Positions 17,450 through 18,778 of a stretch of DNA of 64,000 bases are shown here, one piece after another. The translations under genes and the position numbers were made by a program. Under the pieces are notes generated by a model. That model was not told the origin of the DNA. It was given only the letters and a program-made list of their open reading frames with translations, and made no database searches. Every line of letters starts with the position of its first letter. The stretch's first letter is position 1. This DNA comes from Myxococcales bacterium (GTDB taxonomy: Bacteria; Myxococcota; Myxococcia; Myxococcales; Anaeromyxobacteraceae), in contig JAJZQX010000007.1 of the NCBI GenBank assembly GCA_021806645.1, positions 62,001 to 126,000 of the forward strand, read 5' to 3'.

Positions 17450-18778
17450 TCACCGGGCGGGCGCTGGCCTGGTCGGAGCGCCTCGCGCCAGCTCCTCGCG
17501 AAGCGCGCGGGCGGCCGAGAGCGCGCCCCTGGGGCGCACCGACTCCGGCAGCGCCTCGCCGTGGCTGATGGCCTCGTGGACCGCGGCCGTCGCCCCGGGC
17601 AGGTCACCCGCGGCGCGCAGCGCCCGGGCCTCGACCACCAGGACGCTCACCTTGCGCGGCCCCTCGGCCAGCGCGGCGGCGGCCTTCGCCGTGGCGGCGG
17701 CCTCCCGGGGCCGGCCCGCCTCGAGGTAACCCCGCGCCAGGTAGGCGAGCGCGAAGTACTCCCCGGGCAGCGCACGAGCCGACGCCTCCAGCGCCGGGAG
17801 CACCCGGGCCACCTCGCCCAGGGTCATGGCCGCGGAGAGGCGGGCCCCGTCGAAGGCGGAGCGGGAGAGCGGCGTGGCGGCCCTGGCCGATCCGGCCTCG
17901 ATCCAGTCGAGCCACTGGCGGGCCACCACCCTGGCGCCAGCCGCGTCCTGGCTGGCCTTCCGCGCGCCCAGCAGGGCCTCGTAGAGGCCGGAGCGGTCGT
18001 CGGCCGGCACGCCCGGGAAGAGGAGCGCGCCGCGGGCCGCCGGCTCCAGCGCCGCGATGGCAGCGGCGCGTGGGGCCGGCGCCTCCAGCGAGGTGCCGCA
18101 GTTGAGCCCGGCCGCCGCCACCCGGGCCGCGGCCGGCCCGGGCGGTAGCGTGGGCAGGAGCCGGCGCGCGGCGTCGGCGCACGGCTCCGGGTCCCCGCTC
18201 ACGTAGAGCGCCTGCAGCAGCGCGTCGGCCGCGCCCGGCCGGCCGGCCCAGCTCGCGCCGCCGGCGCCGAGCGCCTCGGCGAACGCGGCGGCCGCCTCGG
18301 CGTGTCTCCGGTCCGCGGCCAGCGCCGCGCCGCGCGCCATGGCCGCCCCGGCGGCACCGGACGTCTCGCGCCGCGGCGCCTTCCCGGCGCCGGCCAGCAG
18401 CTTCTCTAGCTCCCCGGCGGTGGCCGTTCCCATCCAGCGCAGCACCACCTTCTCGCCGGCCGGCTCGATGACCAGGATGGTGGGCCAGGCCTCGATGGGA
18501 AACCGCTCCACGAAGGCGAAGTTGCGCGGCTTCTCGGTGTCGATGTCGAGCCAGGCAAACTGCCCGGCCAGCTTCAGCAGGCGCGCGTCGGTGAGGACGT
18601 TGGCCCGCATGAAGCGGCAGGTGGGTCACCAGGGGGCCCAGACGTCCACCACCAGCGGAACGTTCCGGGCCCGGGCGTCGGCCAGGGCCCTGGCGTAGTC
18701 GTCGGCGATGAACGGGAGCGAGCCGGCGGCGGCCGGCCAGGCCACCACAAGGGCCAGGGCCGCGAGGAGGGAACGCAT
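17450..18778 (-). CDS. Secreted thioredoxin-like/TPR protein, candidate selenoprotein with in-frame TGA in a U-x-x-C motif
   Basis: From the ATG at 18778 the frame gives a 20-residue signal peptide, then a thioredoxin fold reading VVDVWAPW-TGA-PTCRFM. The TGA (18628-18626, codon 51) sits exactly where the first redox Cys of W-x-P-W-C-x-x-C belongs. The frame stays open after it for 391 codons. Downstream come VL, LDIDTE and the cis-proline segment EAWPTILVIEP, so the thioredoxin domain is intact across the TGA. Residues ~120-442 are Ala-rich helices resembling TPR repeats. Sec use is supported by the Sec-encoding fdnG in the window. No canonical SECIS is obvious; the short hairpin just after the TGA (CCTGC-N8-GCGGG) sits too close. 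The alternative is a C-to-TGA nonsense mutation. Confidence 0.75.

Follow-up and report, generated by a model that had tools for sequence, protein, structure and literature searches.

A thioredoxin-TPR gene with an in-frame TGA at the active site

The window, that is, the whole 64,000-nucleotide stretch of the Myxococcales contig analyzed here, carries on its minus strand a reading frame (18778-17450) that starts with ATG, is interrupted by a single in-frame TGA at codon 51, stays open for 391 further codons and ends with a terminal TGA (Table 1). The internal TGA stands in the context WAPW-TGA-PTC, at the first Cys position of a WAPW-C-x-x-C thioredoxin site. A first-pass annotation made from the sequence alone had proposed this replacement and the long open frame behind it, without giving the strand, and re-reading of the frame, which places the codon at 18628-18626, bore out both points; the upstream fragment that it had put at 56 residues actually measures 50 from ATG to TGA. 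AlphaFold2 predicts a thioredoxin domain joined to a TPR-type superhelix (mean pLDDT 94.6, pTM 0.91), and structure comparison returned TPR superhelices as PDB matches to the helical domain (Z up to 17.5). In an alignment of 20 sequences the cis-proline column shows no variation, and neither do two further Cys residues of the helical domain, C180 and C207 in the numbering of the aligned sequence, which may constitute a structural or redox pair. Among the features that had been called intact, fold and cis-proline thus hold, whereas the signal peptide is only probable and export, which is inferred from it, is no more than probable either.

Table 1. Coordinates of the proposed selenoprotein gene, its protein features and the RNA elements downstream of the TGA
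Feature	Position	Strand	Basis
Proposed selenoprotein gene, encoding 442 residues with Sec51: a probable signal peptide followed by a U-x-x-C thioredoxin domain and a TPR-like domain	17450..18778	minus	
Probable signal peptide, residues 1-19, MRSLLAALALVVAWPAAAG	18722..18778	minus	Judged by eye from sequence, no predictor
Thioredoxin domain, residues about 21-132	18383..18718	minus	Pfam Thioredoxin_7 (40 bits); AlphaFold2; PDB comparison
In-frame TGA, proposed Sec51 of WAPWUPTC	18626..18628	minus	Every homologue examined has TGA or TGC/TGT
Predicted spacer helix between UGA and SECIS-like hairpin	18571..18615	minus	Closing helix predicted in every Sec sequence (24/24 and 25/25)
SECIS-like hairpin GCCGGGC-AGUUU-GCCUGGC, loop 64 nt after UGA	18550..18568	minus	RGUUY loop and stem intact in every distinct Sec sequence (49/49)
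TPR-type alpha-helical superhelix, residues about 141-432	17483..18358	minus	AlphaFold2 (pLDDT mostly >94); PDB TPR superhelices

Codon 51 is TGA or a Cys codon in all homologues examined

The first-pass annotation had named an alignment of homologues as the way to check codon 51. Within the window's own family, TGA is found in all 19 homologues that cover the site. Across the class, where 124 of 147 genomes have relatives, the codon in 80 homologues is either TGA (27) or TGC/TGT (53) and nothing else, and 80 further loci from named genomes likewise carry only TGA, TGC or TGT. The two sets overlap in part and amount to about 150 loci, in which codon 51 is never TAA, TAG or a codon for another residue. 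Through the named-genome search the family came to include Acidobacteriota, Thermoanaerobaculia among them, and Candidatus Eisenbacteria; TGA forms occur in both groups as well as in Myxococcota. An isolated in-frame stop often betrays a pseudogene or a sequencing error, but here the same TGA recurs in independent genomes of several phyla, followed by an intact frame with constrained codons; the comparison of homologues has refuted this explanation, to which we assign practically no weight. The same counts exclude chance, in agreement with the initial argument that a random nonsense mutation would hardly have struck the catalytic Cys.

Could the TGA be a real stop, either closing a short leader peptide ahead of a separate protein or programming a truncation? 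The separate protein would start at ATG 18610, six codons past the TGA, and the 386-amino-acid ORF that the first-pass annotation expected to be called there does exist, but only as a mechanical ORF; the ATG is replaced by a Leu codon in three homologues (L021, L060 and L139). Moreover, the Cys homologues run uninterrupted across the site, and the first half of the thioredoxin domain, upstream of the TGA, is conserved as protein, the closest pair of sequences differing mostly at third positions. Together with the absence of TAA and TAG from codon 51, these observations leave a genuine stop very improbable.

The genome itself has the means to decode UGA as selenocysteine. This had been deduced from the need of fdnG for Sec, with selA, selB, selC and selD suggested as genes to look for, and all four were found (SelA 489 bits, SelB 285 bits, tRNA-Sec 74 bits, SelD 385 bits). 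The FdnG-type formate dehydrogenase gene has its in-frame TGA at 60683-60681 on the minus strand (DNQARV-U-HGPTVAG), followed by a canonical hairpin, GGCC-GGTCT-GGCC, with its loop 18 nt after the UGA. The selD gene (L176, C7:16671-17597) also contains one in-frame TGA (HGAG-U-ACK), with a candidate SECIS loop, CGTGC, at +32, and SelD of this genome is likely a selenoprotein as well. In the class, SelB occurs in 119 and tRNA-Sec in 118 of the 147 genomes; among 24 genomes with TGA forms to which the named-genome loci led, most of them MAGs from other phyla, 19 have selB and 18 have selC. Three Sec-form genomes, each only about 80% complete, lack selB above cut-off (G020 and G021) or both selB and selC (G013), and one genome of the window's family (G011) lacks both tRNA-Sec and the selenoprotein gene and gave no SelB score above cut-off. 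None of the outcomes that the first-pass annotation had listed as refuting its proposal (a conserved stop or an unrelated start in homologues, a Cys codon on resequencing, absence of selB or selC) has occurred. We conclude that the selenoprotein reading is strongly supported, although Sec in the protein is not shown, there being no 75Se or mass spectrometry data.

A separate observation concerns G004, a nearly complete genome of the same family with SelB and tRNA-Sec, in which no copy of the selenoprotein gene was found.

A conserved SECIS-like hairpin lies 64 nt downstream of the UGA

When 25 Sec and 34 Cys sequences were scanned over the 120 nt that follow the TGA, a sole hairpin proved common to all Sec forms. 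It has a 7-bp stem and an RGUUY loop located 64 nt past the UGA, and is intact in 25/25 Sec versus 3/34 Cys sequences. With more sequences the stem was present in all 49 distinct Sec sequences compared to about 6% of 81 Cys sequences, and when synonymous codons were redrawn from the gene's own usage, stem and loop came up together in 3.7% of cases. The loop reads GGUUC in 31 of the Sec sequences, AGUUU in 9 and AGUUC in 9. Synonymous codon choice within the hairpin is strongly biased in the Sec sequences: the Gly codons are GGA/GGG in 48/48 (background 0.37), the Ala codon is GCC in 49/49 (background 0.42) and the Arg codon is CGG in 31/31 (background 0.29). Three stem positions vary yet stay paired, including two-sided changes (GC to AT, AT to GC). 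As the Sec sequences share descent, these counts are not independent trials, and the contrast with the Cys relatives serves as the main control. A comparison with Rfam gave chance-level matches only.

The hairpin directly after the TGA, with its loop at +9, was also considered as a SECIS and rejected, being absent from some Sec forms and sharing many of its pairs with Cys forms. The first-pass annotation had already noted its poor fit; the conserved SECIS-like hairpin is found further on, at 18568-18550.

A predicted spacer helix would bring the hairpin to a near-conventional effective distance

According to the published bSECIS model, 16-37 nt separate the UGA from the apical loop (PMC13188914). 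The +64 hairpin satisfies the remaining criteria of the model, namely a loop of 3-9 nt on a stem of 4-16 bp (5 nt and 7 bp in 49/49), a G in the first two loop positions and an MFE of at most -7.5 kcal/mol (-9.5 to -13.9 here), and fails that of spacing, the distance being 64 nt in all 49 sequences, or effectively 12-20 nt if the intervening RNA, predicted to form a helix, folds. Since the same review reports some elements outside the model (PMC13188914), deviation from it has precedent in itself; for the 64-nt geometry with a folded spacer we found no published description.

A rival reading is a selenoprotein whose true SECIS sits within the usual 16-37 nt, or has no fixed register, with the +64 hairpin acting in mRNA stability, pausing or the like. 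The published spacing rule (PMC13188914) argues for this, and candidates are at hand in a short 5-bp helix right after the UGA in 20/25 Sec sequences, although its 8-nt loop begins at +9, and in the spacer helix itself, where many sequences have a small loop near +30. Among the 49 Sec sequences, however, a column-fixed 4-bp hairpin within the 16-37 nt window is never present in more than 73%, and for the best candidate just 22% show a G in the first two loop positions, whereas the +64 hairpin follows the TGA codon almost perfectly. We therefore regard a SECIS at the usual distance or without fixed register as unlikely, though not negligible, and recognition of the RGUUY hairpin by SelB, inferred without binding data, as most likely.

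Minimum free energy folds of the 24 distinct 84-nt Sec sequences all contain the hairpin and a separate helix that fills the gap, against 5.8% of redraws. In a prospective test with criteria fixed beforehand, all 25 new Sec sequences, taken from named genomes, passed, compared to 7.4% of redraws and 2/27 new Cys sequences. The predicted closing helix by itself arises in synonymous redraws at about 0.31-0.33 per sequence and in 12/61 Cys forms. Counting unpaired nucleotides plus the hairpin stem as the effective path from UGA to loop, we obtained 12-20 nt over the 49 Sec sequences, most commonly 12-14 and 19 nt, against 18 nt for fdnG of the same genome, a result that points to the intervening helix as a folded spacer. 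This role is inferred from predicted folds, in which the helix shifts register and shows little column-wise covariation. On balance we think it probable, with some reserve, that this family from Myxococcota, Acidobacteriota and Eisenbacteria represents a new class of bacterial SECIS, in which SelB recognizes a hairpin some 64 nt past the UGA that an independently folded spacer helix brings to working distance, and of which some Cys forms retain a fossil hairpin. Gene finders built on the published distance rule would reject a signal at +64, and other selenoproteins with a distant SECIS may therefore be hidden.

Relation to known proteins and proposed function

Among known selenoproteins, the thioredoxin (PF00085, UxxC) and thiol:disulfide interchange (PF13098, UxxC) families (PMC13188914, Table 1) have in common with the window protein a thioredoxin fold, Sec in place of the first active-site Cys and frequent Cys homologues. 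The window protein differs from them by its probable signal peptide, its Thioredoxin_7-type domain and its TPR superhelix, and its gene by a SECIS hairpin much further from the UGA. A 2026 review lists 119 prokaryotic selenoprotein families (PMC13188914), none of which has such a domain make-up by listed name and domain, in line with the initial view that the TPR-like fusion sets this protein apart from common thioredoxin selenoproteins. No NCBIfam model scored above cut-off, the best selenoprotein model being TsoB (NF045694, 30.2 bits versus a cut-off of 805), and the open-access literature, supplements excluded, yielded no report of such a protein for Anaeromyxobacter, myxobacteria, Myxococcota or Acidobacteria; the peroxiredoxin-like selenoprotein of Anaeromyxobacter dehalogenans mentioned in a 2007 paper belongs to a different family.

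The nearest known architecture is that of the chaperedoxin CnoX/YbbN (PDB 3QOU), which likewise combines an N-terminal thioredoxin domain with a C-terminal TPR domain and in Caulobacter has an active CXXC (PMC8129009), but the window protein has a longer TPR array, a probable signal peptide and a Sec or Cys active site. We do not claim membership. Overall, the structure matches 3QOU poorly (TMq 0.23), no CnoX model was among the NCBIfam matches (whether the library holds one was unchecked), and in a search of the PDB for a CnoX-like fold TPR superhelices and thioredoxins came up only as separate matches, none of them close to the whole architecture. CnoX/YbbN has been described as a folding factor of the cytoplasmic type that cooperates with GroEL (PMC8129009), and the probable export signal argues against a cytoplasmic role. 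In our judgement the window gene represents a selenoprotein family that is new and whose SECIS is unusual and probably bipartite; translation, SelB binding and function are inferred.

In the mechanism that we propose, SelB and tRNA-Sec would decode UGA51 as selenocysteine and so create a UxxC redox motif, with SelB bound to the RGUUY hairpin and the RNA in between folded as a separate helix that would return the hairpin to about the usual path length. The probable export signal, the UxxC motif and a superhelix of protein-binding type suggest an oxidoreductase of the cell envelope that acts on docked proteins: the product would probably be a thiol-disulfide oxidoreductase, broadly parallel to redox-active CnoX but exported, whose TPR superhelix docks clients, a docking for which there is no direct evidence. 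We put the probability of this joint reading (exported thioredoxin-TPR selenoprotein, Sec at UGA51, SelB-recognized +64 hairpin, folded spacer and envelope oxidoreductase) at roughly 0.8.

Repeated exchange of Sec and Cys

A quick tree of the family requires 7 Sec/Cys changes, and at least 4 are forced by well-supported branches, which points to repeated switching between the two forms. One pair of sisters, a Sec form (L059, genome G042) and a Cys form (L082, genome G043), shares 91% DNA identity, and the Cys member, whose named counterpart is L112 of Archangium lansinium, has kept the hairpin intact. This is most simply explained by a recent reversal from Sec to Cys that left a fossil SECIS behind, but a Sec gain in G042 is not ruled out. 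An intact SECIS-like hairpin is also retained in another Cys form, L132, and both cases are apparently recent Sec-to-Cys changes. Since reports of such reversals mostly concern formate dehydrogenase and SelD (PMC1794560), the thioredoxin-TPR family offers a clear case for their study, and its natural set of Sec and Cys relatives, in which only the Sec forms have fixed synonymous codons, allows the geometry of SelB recruitment to be tested directly.

Some loci deserve separate mention. No operon was seen in the gene neighborhood; a divergent GTPase-like gene recurs in 40 loci and is absent at the window. The Sec form L021 (G013) has a broken frame 109 codons past the TGA, reflecting an assembly error or a decaying copy. 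Finally, in L044 and L051, tandem Cys paralogues that adjoin the regular Cys copy, the motif is altered (GWCISC, GWCTAC).
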